Origin: Prostheceraeus crozeri
Lineage: Eukaryota > Platyhelminthes > Polycladida > Euryleptidae
Reading direction: 5' to 3'
NCBI GenBank assembly: GCA_907163375.1
Contig: CAJQUW010008761.1
Span: 79,114-143,113 of the forward strand
DNA length: 64,000 nucleotides
How positions within the stretch are numbered: the stretch's first letter is position 1; the number at the start of each line of letters is the position of its first letter. Below are positions 16,201 through 37,200 of this stretch, in pieces. Under the pieces are notes generated by a model. The model had not been told where the DNA came from and ran no database searches. It saw only the letters and a list, made by a program, of their open reading frames with translations. Position numbers and translations under genes: made by a program.

Positions 16201-19200
16201 TGATATTTTTCATTCAAATGCAACGTTATTATTGTTTTCAACATCAGTTGAAGTCATACTTTTCAAGATATAAGTAAAATATTGAATACGTTTTCTTGCA
16301 ATACGACCTTGTATTTTGCCCAAAAGTGACTTACGAGTATGCCAGTAGTGAAAACTGTACCCTACTTGCGACGGATAGGTACATGGATAGGTACATGTAA
16401 AATTTAGTGTTATCAATAGGTACATGGATAGGTACATGGATAGGTACATGTATAATTTAGTTATCGATAGGTACATGGATAGGTACATGTATAATTCAGT
16501 GTTATGAATAGGAACTTGTATGAGATCTGTTTTACTGGATAGGTACATGTGTTTGGTACACTCAGTTGAGTACACTGTGTTTCGGAACGTCTATGATCGA
16601 ACTTGTGTGGTTTGGTTCTGAGCACTTGGGTACGTACCGATAGACGTCCGTTGTTTGATTTTGAATGGGTTTGCTCAATTGCGACTATTGTGACTATTGA
16701 AACCATTGTAATCAAGATGACACATTGATTTTCCTTTTACGTAGACAAACTAAGCTATAAATATGAGATAGTTGTTTGATGACATACATAATGATGACTA
16801 GTATCCCAACGTCGTGGGTTGTCGCAAGAGACCTTGGATATTCGTTCAAAGCTATAGAAACTGTAACAAATCTCAGTGAAAATATCAACGCTGGTGATTT
16901 AGTTGATCGACTAATGGATCTAGATGAGCATGCTATGAATCACAATTTGGATCGTAGGTGGATAGAGGATTTCTCCATGCTACACTGCAATGATAGTGAA
17001 ATTAGGAGGATCAAATTGGAACGATATGGAAAGAAGGAGACATCTGACAGTGTTTTAATAAAAAGTTCTCCCAATAAAAGTGACTTCAGAAGGAAATTAG
17101 AAGAAGAGACATTTAAATTATTATGTGAACGGAACTGCGTTAAATGTTTTAAACAGGAACGATCCCTTCTCTTTTTGCCATGTTCTCATAGCGTTATGTG
17201 TTCTACATGTTATGTACCCTTTGAAACTTCATCTTGTCCCCTTTGCGATGAAGAAATATCTTCAACAGTCACTGTATATCGTGCATGATGAGTCATCATG
17301 CAGGTCTGTGATTGGTCACTATTGTGTCTTTGTTTGACTTTTCTATATAAGGAGGACATTGTACCGTTCTATTTCAAGCATAATTTGAGGCTAATACAAT
17401 GTCAATCAGCATGTCGTTCACTACCAACATTCCCATTTCAATAATTTACCGAAGTCAACTCTTCACCGGCAATATATTTTATTCTGCCGTGAATATAACT
17501 GGCTATAAAGCGGATTTGGTGGATCTGATGGAGGAAATAGTGAAGTATTTCCGCTGCGGAGAGGACGTTGTGGTGCAGAGAATGTTGATGAGAGTCGTGA
17601 ACAACGCTCTTACACGAGTTGCAAGATTTTGGCTCAATGAAGTATTTCGCCCACTAGCTCAAACGGAGATTGTACCGGAATACTCTCGCTGTTGGTGCAG
17701 CAGTATCCAACGGAAACTCAACACATGTCTCCATGACATTATCACCTCCAGCTACTATGACGAGAAGGGTGAGAAATGCAAACTGGACTTGTTCAGTGGA
17801 CCGCCATCAGTAAGCATCAATGTGGCTGCTCAAGGACATTCTGAGGTAATCAGTTTGCGGGCATACTATGCCAATATTTTAAAGACTTTCCATTCAAAGC
17901 CCTGCTGTATGTGCTGTCCAATTTCAAAACATCTAATGAAAGACATTGAGCAGCTCATAACTGCTACAAATCAGACTCTAGCCGATGTGAGTGTATATCA
18001 GTTTCCCTCTACAACTTGTTAAGTGTTTTATGTAATTTTATAAGTACCAGCAACAAACTCTGTGTGAATGCTTGTAAACTTTTGTATATAATGTTGTAAG
18101 TACTAAGCAAAAATTGTAATTGTATTATCTATTTCCATATTAGAATAAAAATGTCTGTAAAACGGAAGGCATCTTCTCGTCAATCGAAACGGTCCTTCAA
18201 ACCTTCAAGTCAGTTTAAAAAGGCGTTGCGAAAGTTAAACAGGATACATGATAATAAGAAGAAGTGTAAATTGATTCAAAATTCAAGTGATGATTTCATT
18301 CGTGATTTAGCTTTTGCAATACACAAATGTCTACCTATTTACAAGCCTCTGTTGAATGCTGGCTCTTTGAATAGCATAAAAAAGTTTTCAAATCCAAGGA
18401 GTAGTGATAAGAAAAGGCGAAACTTAATTCAGCGCGGTGGTGGTGGGTTTCTAAGTATGTTAAATGATATTGGAAACAGTATTAATGGTGTAATCAATAG
18501 TCCGCTTGGAAGGATTGCAGCAACTGCTGCAATGTTAATATAAGGTTAGCGAATCATAAAGTGACACGTCATCACTTTGATTGATGAGTCATATATAGGT
18601 GTATATAAGGAAGACGCTTTAATGATATTTTACCACTTTCAAGTGACAATTCATTTGCGCTGGTTGAAAGCTCCGAATTAGTACTTGTTGAAACATGACT
18701 CAGAAAATGTATACAATCAGAGAGGAAGGTGACGCTTTTGAGCAAGATCTCTTGAAGCTTCGTCCGACACGAAAGGTGCAAGGGATTGGAAATACATTCT
18801 ACTTTCAAACCTTGAATTATGGTGATGATGGCTTTTATCTTCAAGTTCCATTCTTCCACAGTAATGGTATGTCTACATCAGGGTATAGCAATATGAGACA
18901 AATGCGAGTGACTTTTCCAAAATGGCAACAGGTGATTCTTAAAACTATTGACTCTTTCGCGAAAGAATGTGTTGAGCTGCCTGAAAGTGCTCCCACTCAT
19001 TGGAGAAAGGCATTAGAGGAAGGAGTTGGTTATAAGGAATTGCCGGAATTCGATACACTGTTTTTAAAACTATCGGATCATTTTCAAGCATTCGATCTCT
19101 TTACAAACGCGATGGAATGTGAGGATCTCAAACGGGGCCGCTATATGGGGTTAGTGCACGTTACCGGACTTTATATTGGCTCACATGGTTCGACTGGTAA

Positions 19201-22200
19201 AGTCGCATCTTTACAAATGAAGGTTCTTCAACTAGTCTATGAACCACTACCAATTGATAAATGTTTAATTAACATTGATAAGACTGCTTCAAGTGATGGG
19301 AAGGAAGAGAGCAAAAAGCGAGGGCGGAAATCTAAAGATGGGAATCCTAAATTGAAGTTGAAGCGCCAAGATGCTGACTTGAAAACTTTCTATAATCCTA
19401 ATTGTGATGAGGAAACACAAATGTTTTAATTTGTAAATGTAACTTGAAAGTTTCTATTCTGAATGTAAATAAACGTGATCTGGAACATGTGTCTGTTTTG
19501 TTGTTCTAAGCAAAATTAGCGGGATGATGAGTTTAATGTTAATGGAATTGTAAGATGACAGATTTTCGTCTATTCACTGATCGCACAATGTGTGTCGCTG
19601 GACCAAGTCAGTCCGGTAAAACTACATTTGTAACTGAATTGCTACAATATAGAAATGAAATGTTTAACAAGGAAATTAAGAGAGTCAAATGGTATTATGG
19701 AATATTTCAACCACAACTACATTCTGCACTTCGCCAGAAAGGTTATGAGGTGAAGCAAGGGTTGCCATCAACTGAGGATATCAAAGCAGGTGACTTACTA
19801 GTATTAGATGATCTATTACGAGAAAGCAAATCTTCAAAGGATGTAACTGAAATGTTCATTCAAACTGCACATCATAGGGAAGCTTTTATTATCTACATCA
19901 CCCAAAACATCTTCGATGGAGGGAAAGAGCAAAGAACTAGAAGTTTGAATACACATTATTTGGCAATATTTAAAAATCCAAGAGATAGCAGTCAGATACA
20001 TCATCTCAGTAGACAGATATTACCTCAACAACCTAAAGTACTTTCAAAAATATATGAAGATGTAACAAAGAAACCACATGGTTATCTATTTATTGATCTA
20101 ACCCAGGAATGTCCGGAACGACTTCGATTTCGAACAAATATCATACCTAATTCCGCTGAACCAATGACAGTTTTCTCGGTTCACAGTTAGTTTTAAGCAA
20201 TGTACTTTGTTGCCTTATTATTTTCAAACATGTCGTATTCAAAGATGGTAGTCATTCCTCAAGAGGAGTATGTACAATTGACTACATTACAAAGTGCACA
20301 GGAAGTCAAAAATATAGATCAACCTATTACGAATCAACTTAAGGAACTAACACAAAAGGATATGGAAATTCAGAAGATTAAGGATCCCTATCGACGAATG
20401 CAGTTAGCAGCTGAAAACATTGACGAGAGGCGACAGATTCGTGACAAGTTGCGACGATTTATAACCTTGTCAACACCTCGACCATATCGTGTGCGCGCTG
20501 AGCGATTATTTGACTTCATTGATCCACATGTGAAGTTCAATGAGAGAGGGGAGATAATAGATGAAACAACTGGTGATGTTATTAGAAATAGTCACATAGA
20601 TGACCTTCTACAATATGCTGTCAGAGATGTAAGGCGAAAACTAGGTGCACCACAAGGGTGGTCATATTTTCAGAAAATTTTATCTGATCAAAATGTACCT
20701 CACAATATTATTGGAGGACCGACTGTGAATGAATTGGATAAGGGTCACTTACAAGATGGATCAAAGAGTAAAACACCCACGATGGCGGTCAAGCGAGAGC
20801 TTCATGATCCCGATGATCTGCAACCAAAAAGAGCTACTAGGCGCTCAATGCGTGTTGCGAAGGAGTATAGTAAATATTAAGCAAATATGAATTAAGCCTT
20901 GCCTCTCTCATATCATGTCGTTACAAAAATTTTGCTGTTGTTTGAAATCTGCGCTCGAAGGTAAAGCAGAAGAGGGCATAGAGGTTGATATCAATTGTGT
21001 TAGCAGTTGCTGTGCGAGTAATACGCGTGCAAATCAGAACAAAGACGATGAGTACAGCAGTGAAACTCAGAAAGATTTATTACGACTTAAATCATCCCGC
21101 AAGTTTCAGTCGTCCGGAGGTTCTAGCTCGTGCAGCAGGTGTGGGAATAGAGAAAGTCAAGAAGTGGTTGAGGAGTCAACCGACTTACACTCTTCACAAA
21201 AATGCGAGAAAGCGGTTTCCAACAAGAAAATATGTTGTTAACAATATAGATAGTCAATGGCAAGCGGACTTGGCTGACATGCAACAGATATCACAGTACA
21301 ATGATGGCTATAAATACATCTTAACCGTAATAGATATTTTATCTCGCTATGCTTGGGCACGTGCGCTGAAATCTAAACGAGGACCAGAAGTTGAAGCGGC
21401 TTTTCAGAGCATTTTCGATGAGGGGCGTGTTCCGCAAAGAATACAGACCGATCAAGGGAAGGAATTCGAAAACTCTCATGTTCGAAGTCTCCTTAAAAGT
21501 CATAATGTGGAATTGTTTAGTGTCAAAAGTGCTTATAAAGCTGCCATGGTTGAGAGGTTCAATCGCACACTGAAGACAAAAATATGGCGCTATTTCACTG
21601 CAAAAAATACACATGTTTGGGTAGGTGAGCTGCAGAAATTTGTTAAGAATTACAATGAAAGCTACCATCGAATCATTAAGATGAAACCAGTTGATGTTAC
21701 CCCAGATAATGCGATGGATGTATGGCTTCGATTGTATGATAAGAAAGCGAAAAACATTTCCAATGAAAAGAAAATTAATGTTGGTGATAGAGTTCGGATT
21801 TCAAAGGTTAAGTCTACATTTGAGAAGGGGTATCTACCTAATTGGACTGAAGAAGAGTTTTTTGTGGATGAAGTAAATACAAAATTTAGACCCACCATGT
21901 ATAAATTAATAGATTACCATGGCAATCCAATTGAAGGAAAATTTTACTCTTATGAATTGCAAGTAGTAGACAGAAGTGAAGAGGTGTATATGATTGATAA
22001 AATAATTAGGAGGAAAGGTCATGGCAATCAAAGGAAATATCTAGTTAAATGGAAAGGATATCCTGATTCATTCAATAGCTGGATAACGCACCAGGATCTA
22101 CAAAATGTGGAGATGGGAGACACTCGTAACTTTTAAGCTAATATAGCATGTGACTTCTTCCATATATGAGTTTAACATGTCTACTAACTTCAATATCATT

Positions 22201-25200
22201 CTTCCAAGCAATAGCAACCCCAAGATATTCCCAAGTAACAAACCATCTCTCTACTCTGTTGAATTCGCTAATCCAATTACTCTGCATGGACCCCATGAAG
22301 TTGCTCTAACTGAAATTACTTATTACAACGATATCAGTTTGCTAAAGAACAACTATTTTGAATTACATAAAGAAGTGCGAGAGAAGGATGATTGCTTTCG
22401 CATATTTCAAAATAGTCTACATGGTACATGGGCTTTTCATCATCTAACTTTACATCCTTTTTCAACATCTTTACCATCTGTCCAAAACATGATTAAAATT
22501 CAAAAGGCATTTGCAACGTCAACTTTTGATTCTAAGGTTCCCACAATGAGCTTGCAAGATACAGAAAAGGAAATCGGTAGAATGTTTGAACGAATAAATG
22601 ATCTCTTCAAGCTGACTTTGAATAAATTCTACAAACCAGTCATAAAGGGGTCAACAAAATTGATGAAGGAAGGGAAGCATGTTCTTCTTGTATTAGGTAA
22701 GGATTTGAGTCATACTTTTGGGTATTCCAGAACAACTTTCTCATCAAGGTATTGGTACAATGGACGTGGGTGGAATTCGGAGAGGAAAGTCACTGATTTT
22801 CAATGTAGAATTGTGCCATTGTATGCATTACAAAAAAGGAGCATCCGAGTAAAAAATAAATTTGAGGTCATTAGAAGTGTTGAAGACTTTGCAAGAAAGT
22901 TTCAAGGATCAGTGCCAGAAACGTTAATGACTTGTGAATATAAGAAAGAGAAAGTAACTTTATTTACTGTTGAAACGGAGGCAGAATTTATTGTTTTTAC
23001 TAAAAAGACACCATTGGAAAAGTCTGAGTCCGCTGTTATTGAATTCGGATCTGAAATGATTGGGATGTTTAAGGGCCTTGAAAGCGCACCTTGGTTGACA
23101 GAATTAAATGATACATTCAAGGTTCAATTGTCCTCTTCTAAACTCAAAGCATCAACAAATGCTTCATGGGATATCCACGTATACAGCGAAGACATATTGG
23201 GTGATGAATTGTCTACTTCCAGTGAACTTGTAAAAAGAGTTAATTTGAACATTGAAAGCTTGAAAACGCCATCTGAATTGTGTACAAAGTTAAATGAGTT
23301 TGGTGTAGATTACCTTGATGCAGATGAATATCACTTTTCTTATGACCCACATAAGAAACGCATGATTGTAAAGGTAGGGAAGAACTCTCTTATCAAGCTG
23401 GATAGCGTGTTAACGACCACATTGGGATTCTCAAAATCAACTATTTATGAAGGCACATCAATAGGCGATACAGCCCCATCACTAGAGCGTGATATAAGTA
23501 ACTTATACGTCTATTGTAACATTATTGAATATACAAGGGTTGGCGACATTGAGGCCCCACTTCTGCGCACATTTCCTCTCTCATCCGTAAGGAAGCAACT
23601 AATCAATCGAGAATTTTTTAACACAATGTATCTACCAATCAGCCGAAATTTCATCAATAGAATTGACATATCAATTCATGATGACGCAGGAGAAGTAGTA
23701 CCGTTCTGTGGTGGTGTTACTGTTTTGACCCTACATATTAGGTCAAGAGAATAAGGCTTTACGCTATTGTGACTTCCATAGTTATTCAATAGTCATAATG
23801 ACAGGCATTTACAGTAGACCATCATATCAGAGCGGTTATCCCGTGTTTGTTGGAGGTAGACGACAAGTTGGAGGAGGCATATTTGGTGCACTAAGACGTA
23901 TGGTTCTTCCAACACTCAAAAAGTATGGCGTACCAATCATGAAGCGTGTTGGAAGCAGGGCTTTAGATTTTGGTGCAAATGTTGCAGCTGATGCGCTTCA
24001 AGGTGAGGATATCGGTGAATCTATGAAAATGCGCGCGCAGCAATCTGCCATAGACGCATTAGATGATTTAACAAAGACGAGACGTACAGTTCGGAAGAAG
24101 CGTAGGAAGTCAAGACAAGTTGGATCCGGTCGAGTTACTAAGCAAAGACGCAGGAAAAGTAAAAAGCCGACTAGAGCAGCACGTTCTAAATCTAGACGTC
24201 GTGTGAAAGCAAGAAAGCGCAAACGAAATTCCACTGCGACTGGAAACAAGTCAAAACGAAGGAAGACAACATATTTGTAGAGCTAATACGATGCAGAGTA
24301 TCAATTCGGCTTTGTGTTTCTTCGATTCTCCCCCTCATCAGACAGACATCATCTCCTCAACAATTGTAGACATAGTCCCCACAACAAATATCGATGGTAA
24401 CCAGCAGCCTATTCAGTTTGATATACCTGCCAATCCTCAAGATTATATTGACTGTCAATCCATTGATTTAGAGTTGTGTATACAAATTAAGAAGACTGAT
24501 GGTACAAATATCGATTCATCCAAGGATAAAGTGGGATTAGCAAATCTTCCTATTGCCAGTCTGTTCTCAGATGTGTATCTAATATTGAATGACAAACAGA
24601 TTGAAGGAGGGGATCGAGCATATCCATATGGAGCATATATACATACAATGACTCAATTTCAAAAGCAAGCTAAACAGTCACACTTGCAAGTTTCTGGGTG
24701 GTATGATGATCAGCAAGGGAAATTTGATGATGTCTCAAATACAGGGTTGAAAAGACGAATGGATTTAACAGCGGATTCAAAGGAATTATACTTGAAAGGA
24801 CCCGTCTATCTTGATTTCCTTCGTCAATCTAGATATCTGCTATCACAGGTTAAAATGCAAATAAAATTTATTCGTGCAAATCCTGAGTTCGCGTTAATGG
24901 CTTTTGGAGCTACAAACTATCAAGTCAACATAAGTAATGCCGTGCTCAATGTAAGGCGAGTAACAATGAACCCGTCAGTCATCAACGAGCATGCGACAGG
25001 ATTGAGGAAAAACAATGCAATATATCCAGTTAATCACAGTGTGTTGACAAACTTCACAATTGGTGCGGGATCATCCTCACATGCCTACCCAAATCTTTTT
25101 CCCACTGCAATGCCAAAGGCGGTGTATATCACATTTGTGGAAAATGAGGCATTCATTGGTGCTTTTGAAAAGAATCCATTCAATTTCCAACACTTTAATG

Positions 25201-28200
25201 TTAGCAAACTAGCACTCTATCAGGATGGGAAATTTGTATCTTGCAAAGCATATGAGCCTAATTTCAAAGATGGCAAATTCGCACGTGAATATGGTTCTAT
25301 TTTCACCGCCCTCAACATGTTTAATACAGACGATTCAAATGGAATTACAATGGATATGTACAAGAATGGCTACTTCTTCATTATGTACAACCTCACAGCA
25401 GATGCAGATCTAGGTGGTGAAAGCGTAGGAGTTACAAAGCCTGGAAATCTACGACTGGAGGTATCATTTGAGTCACCTTTGAAGAAAACAATTACTTGTC
25501 TCATTTATGCTATCTATGATAGCAAAGTTGAGATAACAAGAATGAGAGACGTGACTGTCAGCTATCAGAGATGAGTAACTTAAGCAACATAGAAATCTTG
25601 AGGAAAATGAGGAAAGCTCATCCCTACTCCAAGACAATATTTCTCAATGTCTTTTCTAGAGATAATTTACCTGATTCAATTCCTTTCTATCCTTGTTCAC
25701 TTATCATCAATACGGATACCAACAATCTTCCCGGAAAACATTGGATTGCTGTATACATCAATCGTTATAAAGTTGCCGAATATTTTGACTCTCTTAATCA
25801 ACCTCGTTTACATGATATCGCATTATGGATGAACAGGTTCTCCTGGACTGTTAGGAAAGTGACATCGTTCCCACTTCAAAGTAATACATCTCTAATGTGC
25901 GGTGGCTATGTACTCTATTTTGTCAACGAGAGACCATTGAAAAATAACTGTAAAAGTGCTTTAGAACTATTTTCAAAAAACTGTGATAAAAATGATGTAA
26001 TTCTTACTAAATATGTTGAAACAGTTTTGAAATAAAGTTTTATGTTGTATCATTAACTTGCTCTCTTTTTTCCAAAACAAGGGTTTATAAGGAAAACAAA
26101 AACATGCTCATATTTCATTATCTATTCACATATATACAAAAACATGTTCATATTTCATTATCTATCCACATATATACAAAATCTACAATTTGGTTTTCAT
26201 GAAACATTTTTTCAAATCACATATGATGGGAGGCACATCACTTATGTCTTTAATGCCGGTTATCACAATCTTTCCATTATGGAACACATGAACATGATAT
26301 GGATGCCAGTTAGTCAATTGAGCTGCTGGAAATAACTCCACTTCATAAGTTAGATTATGTGATGATGTAACTTTACGGAAATCATAGTGATAGTGTAATT
26401 CACATAACACGGTCATTGTCTTCACTTTCCAATCAGATAATGAATCACCAAGTAAATGTTCCAAAGTTAAGTGTAGATATGAGAGATCACCCTCCATGAC
26501 CCTTCCAATACATTGGATTGTTCCATTTGGAAAGAATAGGATAGTGAGAGATCTATCCTTCCTCTGAATCCTCCATGTTAACATTGAGGGTCTTCCAAGA
26601 TGTAAGCTCGTTGTCGGCTTCAATTTGCGTTTTATCAGTAACCATTGTTTTCGGTTGGGTATATTCCTCTCGATCTCTTGTAGATTGAGTTTTGACTTTG
26701 CTTTTGTAGTTAACATCCGATTTACAACTTCCAACCGTTTGATGTCCTCCATCTTTAATGAATGACGTTATCTGTGGTAGTATCTCCCTTGTAAAGGTTT
26801 CCCATGTGACGTCACTGAAACGAAAAAATCGATATTCAACATCTTCACGTTTTGGTGAACAGACGTATAGTTTGACTGATGAATCACACTTTATCCATAC
26901 CTTGTCATCGAGAGGAATCTTGATCCGAGTCTTATGGTTGTCAATGAGATCCGCAAAGTCTTTCAGTGAAGGCAATGAGTCAATACTAATGCAAACGCCA
27001 CGATGTTTTCGATCACTATTTGCTATTGAATGACGAAATGCTATTCTTTTAGAATTTGTTATGTGAACGTTTTGAACGTCACTAAGTTTCCATGTTCTAA
27101 TGTAATGAGGCATGTTCCGAAAGCTATGTTTCAAATTTAGGTTTAATGTTTGCCTAAAGTTTGTTATTTTATTAGCTCAACATATCGGAATGATGTTGAG
27201 TACAAATTCTTCACATATTCATTCACATTAGGACTACCTATTTATTAGTAATCATTTCTACATATCGGAAAGATGTAGAAATTTCAATTTTAGTAAGACT
27301 ACTTATGTATTAGTAAGTGTTGCTACATGTCGGAAGATGCAGCAATCGCAAGATCTATTACAAGTGGAATATTATATTGTTTTTATTTAGACTTATTCTA
27401 CATCACCTGTGACAGGAAGGCATCTCCTTCTCTTCGACGGTGGGGGAAGACCTAGGCTGTAGTGTCCATATGGTAATGATAAATTTTTATCCAGCCAACA
27501 GCGCTTATCCTCCCAAAGTGAAAGACCTCGCTTCCTAAATGATTTTGTGCTAACTATGTGATTTTTTGAATTTATAATTGTCATATCTTCAGTTGTATCA
27601 TTCTCACTATAATAGACACTCCTATAGTCATCATGTTTCAATTTTTTAACTGCTGCTCTCTGAATTCCTTTTGCACGTTTGATGCTATGATTCGTAGAGT
27701 CTAGATATTTCATTGAATACATTTTCGGTTTTAGTAGGATCATTTCCTCAAGCAACTTTCCAGCACACTCATCCTTAAAACAACCTAATCTAGCTTTGTT
27801 TGTAGTTGAGTATAGTCGGTGATGACTATCATAGTTTGAAGAGTCAAACTTTTCACCGAAGTATAGAAGTATATCTTCCAGACGGACAGATGGTGATGTG
27901 TATAAACATAGGAAGAAACTGTCGGTATCACCTCCACAAAGCCGCGTTCTATTTATCAGTGGACACCCTTTTAGATCATTGTAATATAATTGATACATTT
28001 CCAACTTACTATAGTCAAGTACTGCTTGACCAACATATATTAATTTATTTAAAACTATTGAAGGTTTGTACATTTCCATACCAACCAGATCTTCATCAAA
28101 TATTTTGTGTTGAACATAGAGAGGATGATTTGACAATTTCAGTAGTTGTTTCTCATTGTTGACTAGTTTAAATTTTTTCCTTCTCCTTACATTTTCCATT

Positions 28201-31200
28201 GTTTTACCATATAAAGAATTATTTTTCAATTTGTAGAATGACTTTTCGAAGTCAGTGTTTGATTGAGCCCTCTTTTGAGAGTTCATATCAATGTATGTTT
28301 TTAACCAAGGCTTTTGTGTGAATTTTATGCCACTATGAATCTTCTTGATTCTCATGCCCATGGTCAAGTAAAATTTTAAAATTGAATAGTGGACTACATA
28401 ATTTTCCCTATCAAATTGATGGAGCAGAAGTTTCTTGATAGAAGAAAAATGTGTATTTGGTCTTACTTTTTCATATAGATTTTTCATATAGTGTGAAAAC
28501 ATTCTCTTTTCAATCATCTGCATTTCTGGAGCTAATGGGAAATCGGCAGTGTCATCATGAATGGCTGCAGGATACTCTAAATCTAAATCAAAAATGTAGC
28601 CGATTTCACCATCATCATCTATATTTTGAACATTTTCTTCATTTAAAAAATTATCTAATTCACTTTCATTCAACCATTTGAAATTTGAGTGGGGTAGATT
28701 TCTACTGAGTGAAGAACCGTAAAGGTTATTAACATCTAAGTAGGTCAAATGTCGACTTTCATGTGTATTATTTCCTAATTCTTCAATGCGTGCACGCGCT
28801 CGGTGAATGTTGGTGAAAGTCATACCCCCTCTAATTCCTCGTTCAAATAGATTGTACATATTTTCATCTTGTATGTAGTGTGGGGGATCATTGGAAGAGA
28901 AATTTAGTGCTGAGGTAAAGCTAAGATGTGGGAGACTGACAAAATGTACAGGGTCGACTTCATCCTCACGTTGACTCAATGCTCTAAACACTTCAAATAT
29001 GTCTGCCAACAATAAAACATCTAACTTCAGATATGCCAGCATGTAATCACCAAATGTGCTACAATTAAATTCAATCCATGCCTTGTTAGCGTGTTCATAT
29101 TCACTATCGGAACAGTGCTCACGAGTAAGATCATTATAGAATTCAAATTGTGGTGGTAGACAGTCTTCCGTCAACGTGTTTAAGTTTTTGAAGTATGAAT
29201 ATGGAAACACTCCCTTCTGATATAAAACATTATCACTTAATTGTGGAAATTCTACCCTTAATGTCTCTACATGCTCATACGTTTGCAAGCCCTTGGCTAA
29301 TTCACTCAAGGATGCACTTAGAAATTGATATGAGTCTAAGAATTTTAGTTTAAAGTATACTGTCTTCCCTTTGTATTCATTTACAGGGACACTGGCGGAT
29401 AAAGTTATATATTTTTCAGCAGTTGCTGCTACAACATCTAATTTCCAAGATTTCATTCTTCCAATCGCTTTATAGCAAACGATGTGACTATCATAATTTT
29501 TAAAATTGTGGAAAAATATGGGGAGCTCCCGTCTGTTAAGTCTTAACCGGAGATTGCATTTCCTACATAATGTTTGCCTATATCGTCCGGTGATATGATC
29601 ATGATCACGAACTTTTATGACTTCATCGCTGAATTTCGATTTACATTTGTTGCAACATTCTGCATTCTCATGGCGTGCTTTTTCATCCGCTGACAGTGAC
29701 ATTGGCTGCCTAGTTGTTGCACATTGGTTGTCATATAAGTCTTGGGCTACAGTTTCTAAGTGGTGCAAGAAACTAATAATGCAATTTTCTCCCTCAAAGA
29801 GGTAATACTTGTTTTCAAATTTCGATTGAAGGGCATTATGCCAGACATGATAAGCTCCAATGGCCGCAGGTTTATGTATTTTATTATCAATGTAGCACTC
29901 TATATCTGCATAAATTACTAAAGGAGGACTTAGTTGATATTCCATGCTACTTGTTAGTACTTTTAGATCCGATGGCATTTTTTCTATTTGTGCTTTTCCT
30001 CGAATACAAAACTGGAAGTGTCGTTCTAGTGTTGTCTTATATGTGAATGACTGAGTGCATCTTTCGCAGAAGTATTTATGTCTTTTTAAAGTTCTCCTAT
30101 ACAATCTTGACAGCTTTGGAATTCCACAATAGTGTGCTGCTCCATTGTTTAGAATTAGCAAAATATTAACCGTTTGCCTACCAGTAAAGTTACTATTGTA
30201 ACGAACACCTTTGAGTCCATTTTCATAAAAGTGAATGTTAATTTTAATATCATTATTTTTCTCAAATTTTGGAATATCTTTGATTGATACTGGTGTGGAA
30301 ATGCCTTCCATATTTAGCTCAGATGTCCACTCACTATATGATTTTACTTCATTCCTTGAATAAGGTACTTCATTATAATGCAATATTGATAAAACTGCAT
30401 ATAGGAAGCAATCATTTGCATTTGAATTAACATTAATGACAGCTTTAGAGTTTTTTAACTTCTTTGGTAGAGGAAATGATTGTCCACCTGACAGTATTGG
30501 ACTTGTTATTACATTGAACTCTATATTTTGTACATCATCTATAATCCAATTGCTACCCTTTTTTGTGAAGGCTTCAATATGATTTATTAGACTATTTAGA
30601 TGATCCTGAAACCAAGCATCATAGTCATAAATATAGTTTGAGGATGATGAGGTAAAGTGTGCGAGAAAAGTTTCTTCTTCTTGAGGATTAGAACGGACAT
30701 AACGAATTTGTGCAATCAGACGACCGCGCAATTGATAGCTCCTTAGTAAGTCAGACACTAAATTCCCTAACATGGAACGCATGCTTTCTAAGAATGATGT
30801 TATGTCCACAGTAGGTGTTGTTGGCGTGATATCATACACACGTGCATGGCCATTGAGTGCGCTTTCGCTGAGACTAACAGTTCCATAGTTATTATGCATA
30901 TTCATCTCACTATTTGTGTTATGTACATTCATATGCTGTCGAAATCTACTTATAGAGTTATACGTTTTGCCACACCGAGAGCAGTATTGCATAAAGTTTT
31001 GTATGTTAGTTGAAGCGCTGGTTGTTGGCTTAGAAGTAGATCTATTTTGATTATTTGAATTTGACTCTGTTATGCTATCATTCGGTTTATTATTGCATAC
31101 AAGTTTATGCCTCTTAAGATTATCCATCCTATTCGTCTTATATGGACACTTGCTACATTGATATGTTTTTCCTAACTTACAAAATTTTTCATGTCGTTGC

Positions 31201-34200
31201 AAATTGCCTATGAGAGTGAACACTTTTCCACACTTGGTACAGACAACCATGATTATTGATGAGGATTGAAATTAGCAAGCCCTTATATACATCTACCATC
31301 TAATGACGTCAGCGTCATCACCAGCCAATACCATATGTTCCGATCTGTTGTAAAGACAAAACACATACAATTTCAACAATTATTTTTTTTCAAAAAAGAA
31401 GAAAATAAAAGTTAAAGTAATAAAGTTACAGTTTGACACATTTAACAATACCACTATGGTAGAGTTTTAGGTGACTGCAGCTGTCACTACAGCCACCCAA
31501 ATCGTCCATCCTCGTAAGGCGCACTCTTCTGATGCCATTTTGGGAGCATTCGAGGTGCACAAGCGTTTCTTTGTTATGCTGTTGGCTGGTGGTTACTTGG
31601 GAGGCCAACAGGAGGTTTGATTGAGTAATATTTCTTAGAGACTCAATCAAACCTCTATTGTCCTCCTTCAACTTAGCCTCGCGGGCCTCAACCTCCTTTA
31701 GGCGCTCTTGGCAACGACGGAGTTGCACCTCAACGTCTTGTACCTCTTCTGCTGTCGCGTCGAGATCCACATTATACTGCCGAACAGGGAGAGCAGCTGG
31801 AGGTGCGGGCGCAGCAGCGTGAGGGGAAGGATCTGCGGCTGGGATCGGAGAGGAAGGAGCTGCGGCTGGGATCGGAGAGGAAGGAGCTGCGGCTGGGATC
31901 GAAGAGGAAGGAGCCAGTGTCATCATCGGTGATAATGGAAGGCGCACACTCCAGCTCGGAGAAGCCCGGATGTGGCTGAACGAGACTTCCTCCTGAGATG
32001 CACACATCGCGGAGTCCTGTAATCGAAAGAAACAATTGTTTATCATCTATTTAGCATTTTACCATTGATGAGATACAAAAGTGAATTTCTCTTACCTCCG
32101 GCTGGATTGTGACCTTCTGATCGGTTCCAACCTCTGTCTCACGGGGCAACGAGTCATTCTAAAAGATAAATCAATCTATTACAAACAAAAAACATATTTT
32201 AATAGAAAATTCTGTACTCATGCAGTTGACCAACTTTGATACTTACATTTGTAACAGGATCATCATCCTCATCGGAAGAAGATGTCGGGGAAGAAGTCGC
32301 TGACGACGTTTCCTCATCAGATGAAGTCGCTGACGAGGTTTCATCGTCCTCTGATGAGGACTCCCGAATAGGATACGGCTTTTCCTCATTATCTTCCACC
32401 GATGTACTGGTCGCTGGCGTCGAAAGGAAACTTCGATGCTTCCTGAGGGACAGCGATCGCACAACCTGCAGAGAAAAATAATATAACATGTTCGCAACTC
32501 ATTGAGAAGCATACATGTTCTTGGAAATACTTCATGCATTGAGAAATATTATTGACAAATAACTAAACAATGACACTTACGGGACTAGGAAGACACATCT
32601 TCTCCGGTGTAGGCAAACGGGGTATACTGTTCACACCTGTAAACAGCTGAAGAAAAGAACATATTCAATTTCACATAAAGAGCTAATGAATAACTTTAAT
32701 ACTTACATTTCTCAAGCATTCAGCCGCTTTCTCCTCTTCAAAACTGACACAAGTCTGTTGAGGCAACTCACTCTGAAATGTTGTGACAATGTTGAAATAC
32801 TTTTTACATGGTAGAATAATTAATGGAGTAAATGTATTCTCACATTTTTAGTGACGATCTTTTTCTGAATTAAGACCTTGGTCTTCTTAGGAGGAGGCAT
32901 CTCATCATTATCCTGAAATGTTTAAACGATATATGTTTTTATGTATAATGGACCAATAATTAATTTATTCGGTTTTAAGAAGCTATCCTTTGAAGGTATT
33001 ATGTATGATTGGCAGAACTCACCTCAAAATCACTTAAGGTGTCATCGATGAACTGTCGTGACTTGGGGGCTTTCTTTGGGACTCGGGACTTGACGGGTTT
33101 CTTTATTGCGGTAGGCTCCTCCACCTGTGAAAGGACACCTTCCATCGGCCTCTCCTTGTTGAATAATCGCTCCAACCTCCTCTTTTCAACCTTTGAGGTG
33201 AGGTTGATGCCCTTCCTCCCATTTTGCTGAGCACATGGCGTGTGCTTTTCAATGAATGCCTTAGAGGCTTCGGTATTTACCTTTTCATTGCTCCGTTTGT
33301 ATGACTTGCAAGTTAGGCAATAAAGATATGTGCATTCACTTTTGAAGATACAGTTCTTGTGACCGCTCTTATTGGCATGTCGAACGGGTAATTGGCATGT
33401 TTCACAGAAGTGAAAAATTAGGCGCTGTCGTGCAAGACTCTCTTGTCGGACCATCTCTATAGAAGAAAAAAAATTTGATTATAATTTTATCTCTTATTAA
33501 ATGAGAACTCATTTATATATCATCAACAAAACTTTATGAAGTACTACCTTGATATTGAATAAATCTTAGAAAGAATTGAAATCTGAAGTTGAAATTGAAA
33601 CCGAAAGTCGAAAGTTTAATTTTCATTCGAAAACGGTTTGCTCATAGAAAGAGTTGAAATTTACAAGTAGCTGTCTTGAAATTATTTAATTTCGAAATTA
33701 ATTTAATGAAATGAAAGTGAAATTTCGAAAATTTCAACCAATCCTCAATTTGTTTAATTAAACAAGCTTGAATTTTATACATCTGTTAGCAGATGACAGA
33801 CTGAATATTTAAAATGGATGAAGGCTTTATTTAGGTATCTTTTATTTATAAACAAACTGTGAAAATCTTGTTGATTTAAATACACTTACATTTAAACTGA
33901 TATATTCATGTCTCTCGCTCAATGACTTAATTTAGGATGAAAAATTAAAAAAAACATGGTTAATAATATAACATAAAGTGTTCCTATCCTAAAAACCCAA
34001 GCTTCTATATTTAAAGCTATTTGGTTATAAAAACTTAATAATGTTCCTACTCCCGAATATCCTATAAAGTAGCACAACATGACAATGAAACTCACTTCAG
34101 AATTGTAATAAGAACCGGAGAACGGAGGAACGAAGAACGACGTCTGCTATGGACACTGAATTATTTGAAAATGAGTGAAAATTCGTTGTGTGCAACTTCT

Positions 34201-37200
34201 TTATATATGAAATTGACAAAGCAACTATGAACAAAGACCTTATGACATCACATCCTGGAATTGGTACGGTTAAACAAAATTGATAACTCAAACAAGAATT
34301 GGAACAGCTGGTTTATTTTTAACCTTAGAAATGGAAGTGCCATCATATGTGTTGAAAGATTTCTACATGTAAACAGTAGAGTGAATTCAAAGTAATATGA
34401 ACTGATGGACTGATGTATTATTTGATATACATGTTATTATTAATAGTCATATAATGATTCATATTTGAAGATATAAAACGTGTGATTTGAATAGAACATT
34501 AAATTTGAATTAAGCGCTAAATTTCGAAAATTCAAATTTCGCGCCAAAATGTGAATAATCAAATTTAAAGACTTTTTTCGAAAATTTGAATTTCGCGCCA
34601 AAATTCAAATAATCAAATTAAAATACTAGGGTTAGGGAAGCAAGAAGAGTATCTATGGCACCCGGAACCCATGGGTAAATAAATTTTCGAGTGCGCGAAG
34701 CGCACTCGAAAATTTATTTACCCTATAATCCGAAAAATTTCGAGGGCGCGAAGCGCCCGAGAAATTTTGAGGCCCCCCCGCCGTGTATGAAGGTCAAAGG
34801 TCAAGGTCAGGTCTAAGGTCAAGGTCAAGTGTAGAGGATTGTATATTATGGTCATTTTTAGTTGTAAAACTTTAACTTTGAAAATTTGTAAACTTAGTCA
34901 TTTTTGTAAAAAAACTTGGAATTTTTTCAAGTTGCATACAGATGCATACAACTAGGATTTTTTCATCAAATGGGTACATACAATATATCATTCGAATGCT
35001 CTTTTCATGCTGATTCTAATGGTGTATTGTATGACACATGTATGACATATAACTAGAGAGCTACATGTCTTTAAAGAATGGGCTAAAAACTTAGTGAATT
35101 TAAAAATCTAACATTTGTCTGCTTGCATACAGTTGCATACAACTAGGATTTTCCCATCGAATAGGTACATACCTTATATCATTCTAAAGGTCTTTTCATT
35201 CTCATTCTTATGGTGTCGTGTATGACACATGTATGATATCATCCTGGACTGCTACAAGCATTTTAAAATTAACAACATAACTGTTTCTTTAAAAGTTATA
35301 TGTTCCTATTTATTTCAAGTTGAAGTCTTCATATTTGATTTTTTGTTTCAATTCAGTTATTGAACATCATTAATTGTAGATAGTTGTTCCCCTTTCCCAT
35401 TCAGACCTTAATTGAAGACCGATTTGTGAAATGATAAAACAAGTTTGTTCATATATACAAATGAATATTAAATGAAGAGATTAAGAAAAAAACACACTAA
35501 ATATCATCAAGGTAAGGAAAGGGTACAAGTTTTTTCAAGTCCACTTGCACATGGATCCTGGTCTTTTTGGGCGCACAGGGACAGCGACGTGGTGTGTCAA
35601 GGTCGATGACCGAAAATTCGAGAGCGGTTGTGAGGTTCCGCTCGTTCGGCTCCATTCGCATGAAGACCCGTTTCGTGTGGTACTTTCTCGGGGCGTTCTT
35701 GACTTTGACCGTGACCCTTCCATAGAGTGGCGTTCGCATGGACTTCTTATTCATGTGACGCATCGTCTCGATTGATACGTCACTATCTTCATCACTCGAG
35801 TAGTCGGGCGATGCAGGGGCTTGGGTGAACACCACCGGCTCGTTTGGTGTTGTCGATCGCTCCATCGGAGATTGGGGAGGTGTATTGGTACGTTCCACTG
35901 GCGAAGTGGTACGATCAGCAGTACCGTTCTCAACTGCGGCTTTCTGTTTGCGATCCATTATGACTTGTAGATTTAAAATAATTGTAACTTGTAAACGTGA
36001 GGATTAGAACCTTTGATAAGAATTGGTACAAACCTCGGACTTATATACTTTTTAAACAAAGGAAATCCTAACAGCCAATCAGAGAGGTAACGAACTTCCC
36101 TAAAGAATATATATAACTATATAAAGGATGTAATTGTTCCAAACTGTTAAGTACTTATCCTCAACGTTCCATAACAAGAAGCATGTCCTCAAAACCACTA
36201 TTTTATTTTCAAAATGACAGCCAAGTCATTATGGGAGGTCAGTTGGATATGACCATGCATCTCTCTTGCGGCTGCAAAGTGGCCCTATGGAAAACCTTGA
36301 CTGTGTCAGCACTTCAAAGGCGGAGTGGACTACCGGTGAAGTGTCCGGTACACGAGTGTGACCATGACTTTAGTAAAAATCAGACATTTCATGAATGGTG
36401 TGATGACTTCCTGAAGATCATGGAGTCGCCTGAGGGACGTGATCTGTACCCGTCATTTATTTTTCACGCTTAAATTAAACTTACATTGTAAATCTCTTGT
36501 CTTTTCATTTTAAACATAGTTCTGGAATTGGTTTTCTTATTGGGGAGCAACTAAATCATAGCTGCACAGTAAAGTTTCACATCTAAATAGTGCTACATTT
36601 AAAATAATTGTCACAATAGTCGCAATTGAGCAAACCCATTCAAAATCAAACAACGGACGTCTATCGGTACGTACCCAAGTGCTCAGAACCAAACCACACA
36701 AGTTCGATCATAGACGTTCCGAAACACAGTGTACTCAACTGAGTGTACCAAACACATGTACCTATCCAGTAAAACAGATCTCATACAAGTTCCTATTCAT
36801 AACACTGAATTATACATGTACCTATCCATGTACCTATCGATAACTAAATTATACATGTACCTATCCATGTACCTATTGATAACACTAAATTTTACATGTA
36901 CCTATCCGTCGCAAGTAGGGCACAGTTTTCACTACTTATGCAATTAATACCTAAAGAATATCGTCACACATTTTTAATTGGTTAGAGCCATCCAGATCTT
37001 TGACGTCTTTGGAATACCTTGAAGGCAACGCCGATGAAATATTAGCAATTATTTGTCGTTATACTAACTCACAAATGCAACTAGCACTCTAACAGATACT
37101 CTAACATCCAACTACCGCATTTTTACATATTGCACGTCTCTTATCCATATATTTGGCTGGTGGGCTTCAATTTAAGGCTCTATTTCTTGTTAATCGTTCA

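Follow-up and report, generated by a model that had tools for sequence, protein, structure and literature searches.

An open reading frame in a flatworm transposon raises the question of whether a Polinton carries its own gene for a TATA-binding protein (TBP) and, if so, what such a protein would do there. The frame lies in a 64,000-nucleotide (nt) stretch of Prostheceraeus crozeri DNA (GenBank assembly GCA_907163375.1, contig CAJQUW010008761.1, positions 79,114 to 143,113 of the forward strand), which was analysed whole and is called the window here. An earlier note, made from the letters of the window, had proposed a TBP-like gene within a Polinton and suggested that its product could redirect transcription between gene classes. 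The open reading frame (ORF) was found exactly where that note had placed it, and we add that it is read from the minus strand.

Polinton element: 16344..36936, no strand assigned; 20,593 bp with terminal inverted repeats
TBP gene: 26183..26752, minus strand, ATG at 26752; 189 amino acids (aa), identified by its ORF, a Pfam match and a fold model

The best explanation of the sequences appears to be that this TBP gene belongs to the element and is kept by selection.

Identity and predicted fold of the gene product

The window protein scored 49 bits with the Pfam TBP profile (PF00352), whose cut-off is 22.9. All 16 relatives from a first database search carry the PF00352 annotation (E value 1.3e-64 for the best and 2.8e-31 for the weakest), and a profile search returned 119 proteins. 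Twenty relatives that are 46 to 82% identical to the window protein were placed in group 1 and 67 proteins in group 2; six outliers (P0029 and P0122 to P0126) sit on long branches. Scanned singly, 21 of 21 group 1 members, the window protein among them, matched PF00352. The motifs that had first suggested a TBP were all located: YEVELFP at residues 136-142 and HNGKIVITG at 158-166 in repeat 2, and KLNLQEIERN at 21-30 together with an R-I...LFF..G..Q..G pattern in repeat 1.

In the predicted structure of the window protein the two-repeat saddle fold of TBP is complete, and structural alignments of the model to TBP chains give approximately 18-21% identity. The prediction was built on an alignment (A3) that contains the canonical TBP P0125, and a profile comparison using A3 is partly circular because P0125 itself is inside it. 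In independent profile comparisons with TBP, group 1 alone gave 97.2% and 3.2e-11 over residues 69-187, and group 2 alone gave 98.0% and 2.8e-13. Both the profile match and the duplicated saddle, on which the earlier note had made its identification depend, were found, and together with the annotated relatives they support that identification; we regard membership of the gene product in the TBP family as practically certain.

We considered the possibility that the similarity arose by chance, or that the frame is a decayed host TBP copy trapped in the element. The profile match, the fold match, the intact reading frame and the 20 relatives at the identities given above argue against this, as does the distance of the canonical TBP P0125 in the tree, though branches there are long. 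This explanation is exceedingly improbable and was rejected.

Relatives of the window protein

Group 1 was defined by similarity, not as a clade of the tree, which was built with a quick method that gives SH-aLRT supports only. The window protein grouped with P0002 and P0003 (support, 96), and group 2 received a support of 86. The group 1 rows were split into a set of 12 that includes the window protein (support, 84) and a set of 9 (support, 94), so that in this tree the window protein and its 20 close relatives do not form one supported clade but meet at a joint fork without resolution. P0030 to P0121 form a bigger set of divergent TBPs that carry the same GRPxM and FHNGK signatures, with contigs of up to 24.7 kb.

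Scans of viral contigs and genome contigs gave no relative, the relatives being known as protein records without contigs. A Polinton location can be inferred for part of group 1 only, through the overlapping neighbouring ORF described below.

Residues at the presumed DNA, TFIIB and host-regulator contacts

Residue counts cover 20 proteins of group 1 and 67 of group 2 (n = 87), with the window protein and the six outliers left out. The intercalating Phe residues are numbered after what we take to be their yeast equivalents (Phe 99, 116, 190 and 207).

DNA-intercalating Phe equivalents: F74, F141 and F157 of the window TBP, minus-strand gene, assigned by alignment

Phe was present at sites 116, 190 and 207 in 87 of 87 proteins each; the outlier P0126 has His at the last of these. 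The window protein has three of the four Phe residues of TBP, the fourth site being replaced inside GRPSM (residues 53-57), a pairing taken from alignments that include P0125; the independent comparison spans residues 69-187 only. The replacing Pro sits in the GRPxM motif common to groups 1 and 2. The repeat-1 Asn was present in 56 of the 56 proteins covering its position.

On the C-terminal lobe, E137 and E139 of the window protein occupy the two acidic sites that the available part of PMC7221094 names as TFIIB contacts. The first site is Glu in 86/87 and Asp in 1/87, the second Glu in 84/87 and Asp in 3/87, and a nearby Leu is conserved in 85/87. According to the same partial source, basic residues of helix H2 in eukaryotic TBP contact TFIIA, Mot1, TAF1 and Brf factors (PMC7221094). 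Lys and Arg in this helix number 0 in the window protein, 0.85 on average in the 20 group 1 proteins, 4.49 on average in group 2 and 6 in P0125, over stretches that differ somewhat in length. The basic N-terminal-lobe surface for TFIIA, TAF1 and Mot1, a feature of eukaryotic TBP, is absent from the window protein.

No TFIIB was matched among 18 element ORFs in a Pfam scan, so a TFIIB partner would need to be the host's. Because the acids are kept without an own TFIIB and the basic patch is lost, group 1 looks suited to using host TFIIB while evading host regulators.

Motifs upstream of element genes

Four motif copies in the element were recorded relative to the ORFs that follow them.

TATATAAGG: 17344..17352, plus strand, 55 nt before a 207-aa ORF
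TATATAAGG: 18602..18610, plus strand, 93 nt before a 244-aa ORF
TATATAAGG: 31281..31289, minus strand, 39 nt before the polymerase ORF
TATATAAG followed by T: 36040..36047, minus strand, 89 nt before a 153-aa ORF

All four copies of TATATAAG in the element (three of them as TATATAAGG) thus precede an ORF on the correct strand by 39-93 nt, and 43 kb of flanking sequence holds 0 copies; 120-nt windows ahead of each of the 19 ORFs together cover 5.5% of the two strands. In 60 simulated sequences of the same composition, TATATAAG occurred 1.03 times on average and at most 4 times (observed, 4), and TATATAAGG at most 2 times (observed, 3). The TATATAAG count taken alone is only suggestive.

The earlier remark that TATATAAGG boxes precede several genes of the element and are lacking from the structural cluster holds. 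For the motif TATAWA, 8 of 19 element ORFs have a copy within 160 nt upstream; none was found in that range for the seven ORFs from the ATPase to the protease, for TBP, for the ORF that precedes TBP on the minus strand (the preceding ORF), or for two others.

A different motif, GCTAATA, occurs in the element at 17390 (plus), 22137 (plus), 24282 (plus) and 27176 (minus), in 4/4 cases just before a gene start on the correct strand. The genes concerned include a 427-aa ORF, a 534-aa ORF and the preceding ORF, and the gene at 17399 carries both GCTAATA and a TATATAAG-type motif upstream. The frequency of GCTAATA is ordinary (6 copies in the flanks) and the motif was chosen post hoc; it is possibly a second promoter or initiator motif.

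The Polinton and its other genes

Terminal repeats and further genes of the element were as follows.

Left terminal inverted repeat: 16344..16698, plus strand, 355 nt
Right terminal inverted repeat: 36606..36936, minus strand, 331 nt
Putative P-loop ATPase: 19555..20190, plus strand; AAA_14 at 6.7e-5 (below its cut-off) and PHROG ATPase at 9e-4
Integrase with chromodomain: 20985..22136, plus strand; Pfam rve at 3.5e-13 and Chromo at 1.3e-9
Capsid candidate ORF: 24291..25574, plus strand, 427 aa; a candidate by size and place only
Putative cysteine protease: 25571..26035, plus strand; viral protease S273R (PDB 6lj9) at 6.7e-4, convergent with the TBP gene
Putative polymerase ORF: 27393..31250, minus strand, 1285 aa; motifs of family B polymerases in order, at 839, 1007 and 1108

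The Polinton label rests on the repeats, the integrase, the protease, the polymerase motifs and the gene order, and these features support the earlier placing of the TBP gene in such an element. The terminal repeats are identical at 329 of 331 aligned bases, the difference in length being due to gaps in a repetitive part; both (16344-16698 and 36606-36936) are rich in a short GGATAGGTACAT-like unit, and it is there that the copies differ by gaps. Such near identity points to an element that was inserted recently or to copies that have been repaired from each other. The sequences flanking the element, TATGCC and TATGCA, agree at 5 of 6 bases, the Polinton target duplication being 6 bp. A RING finger protein (16776-17288, plus strand; Pfam zf-C3HC4_3 at 1.6e-10) adjoins the left repeat.

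The cluster that lacks TATA boxes starts with the putative ATPase. The polymerase, the preceding ORF and TBP form a minus-strand series in which TBP is last and converges on the protease gene. The polymerase domain of the 1285-aa ORF gave no match in any profile library scanned, and its assignment uses what we take to be the motif patterns of family B polymerases. The same ORF has C2H2 fingers in its N-terminal part and, further inside, an endonuclease VII domain, to our knowledge an unusual addition to such an ORF. For the 427-aa and 534-aa ORFs, both capsid candidates, no family match was obtained in the profile libraries scanned. In the flanks lie an exon for Anoctamin (Pfam, 2.4e-13), which marks the host as a eukaryote and probably an animal, and fragments of elements that we presume to be of Tc1-like, hAT, LINE-type and copia-type classes.

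The preceding ORF and its overlap with the TBP frame

The TBP frame begins inside the ORF that precedes it.

Preceding ORF: 26553..27134, minus strand, 193 aa from TTG; first ATG at 27110
Overlap of the preceding ORF and the TBP ORF: 26553..26752, minus strand, 200 nt in different frames

The predicted fold of the preceding ORF product comprises two units, each of four strands and a helix, with what may be a weak resemblance to PUR/whirly single-strand nucleic-acid binders; a Foldseek search at 0.001 was empty, and no Pfam match rose above chance. A frameshift fusion of this ORF with TBP was set aside as not needed, the TBP frame having its own ATG; P0001 and P0027 have a similar start, and the frame opens just 5 codons upstream of the ATG. 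Sixteen of the 20 group 1 records begin at or past the MLTWR stretch, and because the two frames overlap by 200 nt in the window, these late starts are likely due to gene callers avoiding overlaps.

The overlap was assessed in relatives through protein: the residues that the tails of 7 relatives of the preceding ORF could encode in other frames were scored against shuffles. The +1 frame fitted the start of TBP in 7/7 (26.6-42.8, against top shuffle scores of 12.9-15.9), and the +2 frame scored 6.5-10.8, no higher than its shuffles. Because these relatives resemble the window's own tail, a drift control was added, in which the window tail was mutated randomly to equal identity in 60 runs, with the window excluded from the TBP profile. 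Six of the 7 observed scores exceeded all 60 drift runs, P0018 barely (31.7 versus 30.1); P0017, 98% identical in the tail, carries no information in this control. A TBP frame is therefore possible and fitting in these relatives, as read from protein tails, not from sequenced DNA.

Two short hairpins at 27170-27290, in the gap that separates the preceding ORF from the polymerase stop, share the loop CATATCGGAA (at 27181 and 27261), of which the window has no other copy.

Proposed function and alternatives

The predicted fold, the conservation, the residues and the motif positions are supported; from them we infer how the protein might bind DNA, recruit TFIIB, choose promoters and be timed. The element TBP would bind and bend element promoter DNA and would recruit host TFIIB, and thereby host RNA polymerase II (Pol II), a recruitment that we consider probable, while being largely blind to host TFIIA, TAF1 and Mot1. 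Genes with TATATAAGG, among them the polymerase gene, would be read first, by host TBP, and the element TBP would then serve TATA-less promoters, such as those of the structural cluster, with host TFIIB and Pol II, giving an early-to-late switch. The assignment of the element TBP to late genes is tentative, and on its own we would not rely on it. Taken whole, a selected Polinton TBP that uses host TFIIB and Pol II in an early-to-late switch is the reading toward which we lean, by a modest degree of belief. The earlier note's suggestion that the protein could shift transcription from one gene class to another is consistent with the retained TFIIB residues and the placement of the upstream motifs.

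Several observations weigh against this reading. The fourth intercalating Phe (site 99) is Pro in 67 of the 68 proteins covering the site, and the repeat-2 Asn, retained in 66/66 group 2 proteins, is Thr or Ser in 20/20 group 1 proteins, so that the usual mode of TATA binding is not assured. The retained TFIIB acids may merely reflect ancestry. Group 2 is more basic in H2, and escape from host regulators, if real, would be confined to group 1. Finally, the lack of TATA boxes in the structural cluster may stem from short gaps and is weak evidence, since most gaps between its ORFs are short.

The element TBP could instead serve the TATATAAGG genes themselves, as an early factor, self-amplifying and tuned in its TATA specificity, that acts through host TFIIB. 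All four TATATAAG sites are placed and oriented like promoters and are absent from the flanks, and the TBP gene has no TATA box of its own, which would fit a gene expressed later within this set; host TBP, however, should read TATATAAGG already, and the substitutions on the DNA-facing side (Phe to Pro, Asn to Thr/Ser) indicate another sequence preference, which leaves this alternative doubtful. Kept TFIIB acids beside an altered N-terminal lobe would also suit a trap. Such a decoy, or dominant-negative TBP, would sequester host TFIIB or occupy host promoters and thereby damp host transcription, but the three intercalating Phe residues kept in all 87 proteins would be needless in a pure TFIIB trap, and general shut-off benefits an integrated element little, so a decoy is improbable. 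The same acids (Glu in 86/87 and 84/87) would have no reason to persist had the TBP fold been repurposed outside transcription, for example for terminal-repeat binding in replication, packaging or integration, and we give such a task very little credence.

The favoured switch from host to element TBP might also be extended to two genes. In Polintons of this lineage, TBP and a single-strand DNA-binding protein, the products of overlapping frames, would form with host TFIIB and Pol II an alternative initiation complex for GCTAATA-marked or TATA-less promoters, beyond the reach of TFIID, TFIIA and Mot1. We consider this extension unlikely; if true, it would amount to a transposon-borne general transcription factor and to a third way for viruses to use a TBP, next to those known from giant viruses and herpesviruses.

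How Polinton genes are timed, and whether in early and late phases as in viruses, is a question made directly testable by an element TBP that keeps the TFIIB contact and loses the regulator surface. Its sequence suggests a possible borrowing of host transcription machinery while some host controls are avoided.

Comparison with known systems

The element resembles known Polintons/Mavericks in its terminal repeats and in an integrase of the rve type with a chromodomain, and probably in its putative protease and ATPase and its polymerase motifs. For other genes expected of a Polinton (a protein-primed family B polymerase, an adenovirus-type protease, a packaging ATPase and a double jelly-roll capsid) it offers candidates. 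TBP was unmentioned in the main text, by term search, of the Polinton papers PMC11071296, PMC11071308, PMC8097293, PMC4028283 and PMC10120064; the available parts of PMC7786948 and PMC11464507 do not place TBP in a Polinton; and in PMC12220804 a word-start search for TATA found an author name only. The earlier note takes TBP to be undescribed as a Polinton gene, in agreement with these limited term searches, in which no description of a Polinton TBP was among the matches listed, though an earlier one may exist. TBPs are already known from giant viruses and mirusviruses and, as mimics, from herpesviruses; a Polinton carrier appears new among the literature matches listed.

Compared with cellular TBP (PF00352; archaeal and eukaryotic), the Polinton protein has only about 18-21% identity and a fourth Phe replaced in GRPxM, and group 1 has lost the repeat-2 Asn and the basic patch of helix H2. 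The mirusvirus TBP is likewise the product of a DNA virus of eukaryotes and, in the available text of PMC10132985, is encoded in 59% of mirusvirus genomes; these belong to another virus lineage, with a genome of >400 kb in the longest case, and the comparison is made at the level of published description. TATA-binding proteins are also named, in the part available of PMC10675990, in elements of putative mirusvirus origin.

Giant-virus TBPs share with the Polinton protein a virus-like carrier and a divergent N-terminal lobe without the regulator-binding signature (PMC7221094, available part). In that one survey, the first TFIIB acid is found in about 40% of the TBPs from large DNA viruses, which also lack the N-lobe signature, and almost all such viruses encode a TFIIB, so that giant-virus TBPs are mostly paired with a viral partner; in contrast, the Polinton-type proteins keep the first acid in 86/87, with no TFIIB matched among the 18 element ORFs. 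Herpesvirus ORF24 replaces TBP on the TATT promoters of late genes, as described in the accessible portion of PMC12529657, and shares with the Polinton protein a TBP-like fold, a DNA virus setting that uses host Pol II and possibly two promoter classes. The Polinton protein is nothing more than a TBP core that retains the TFIIB acids, whereas ORF24 lacks them, carries additional domains, has four Phe residues and binds Pol II itself (same portion of PMC12529657). The proposed Polinton switch would thus resemble the herpesvirus late system in its logic, although built from other parts.
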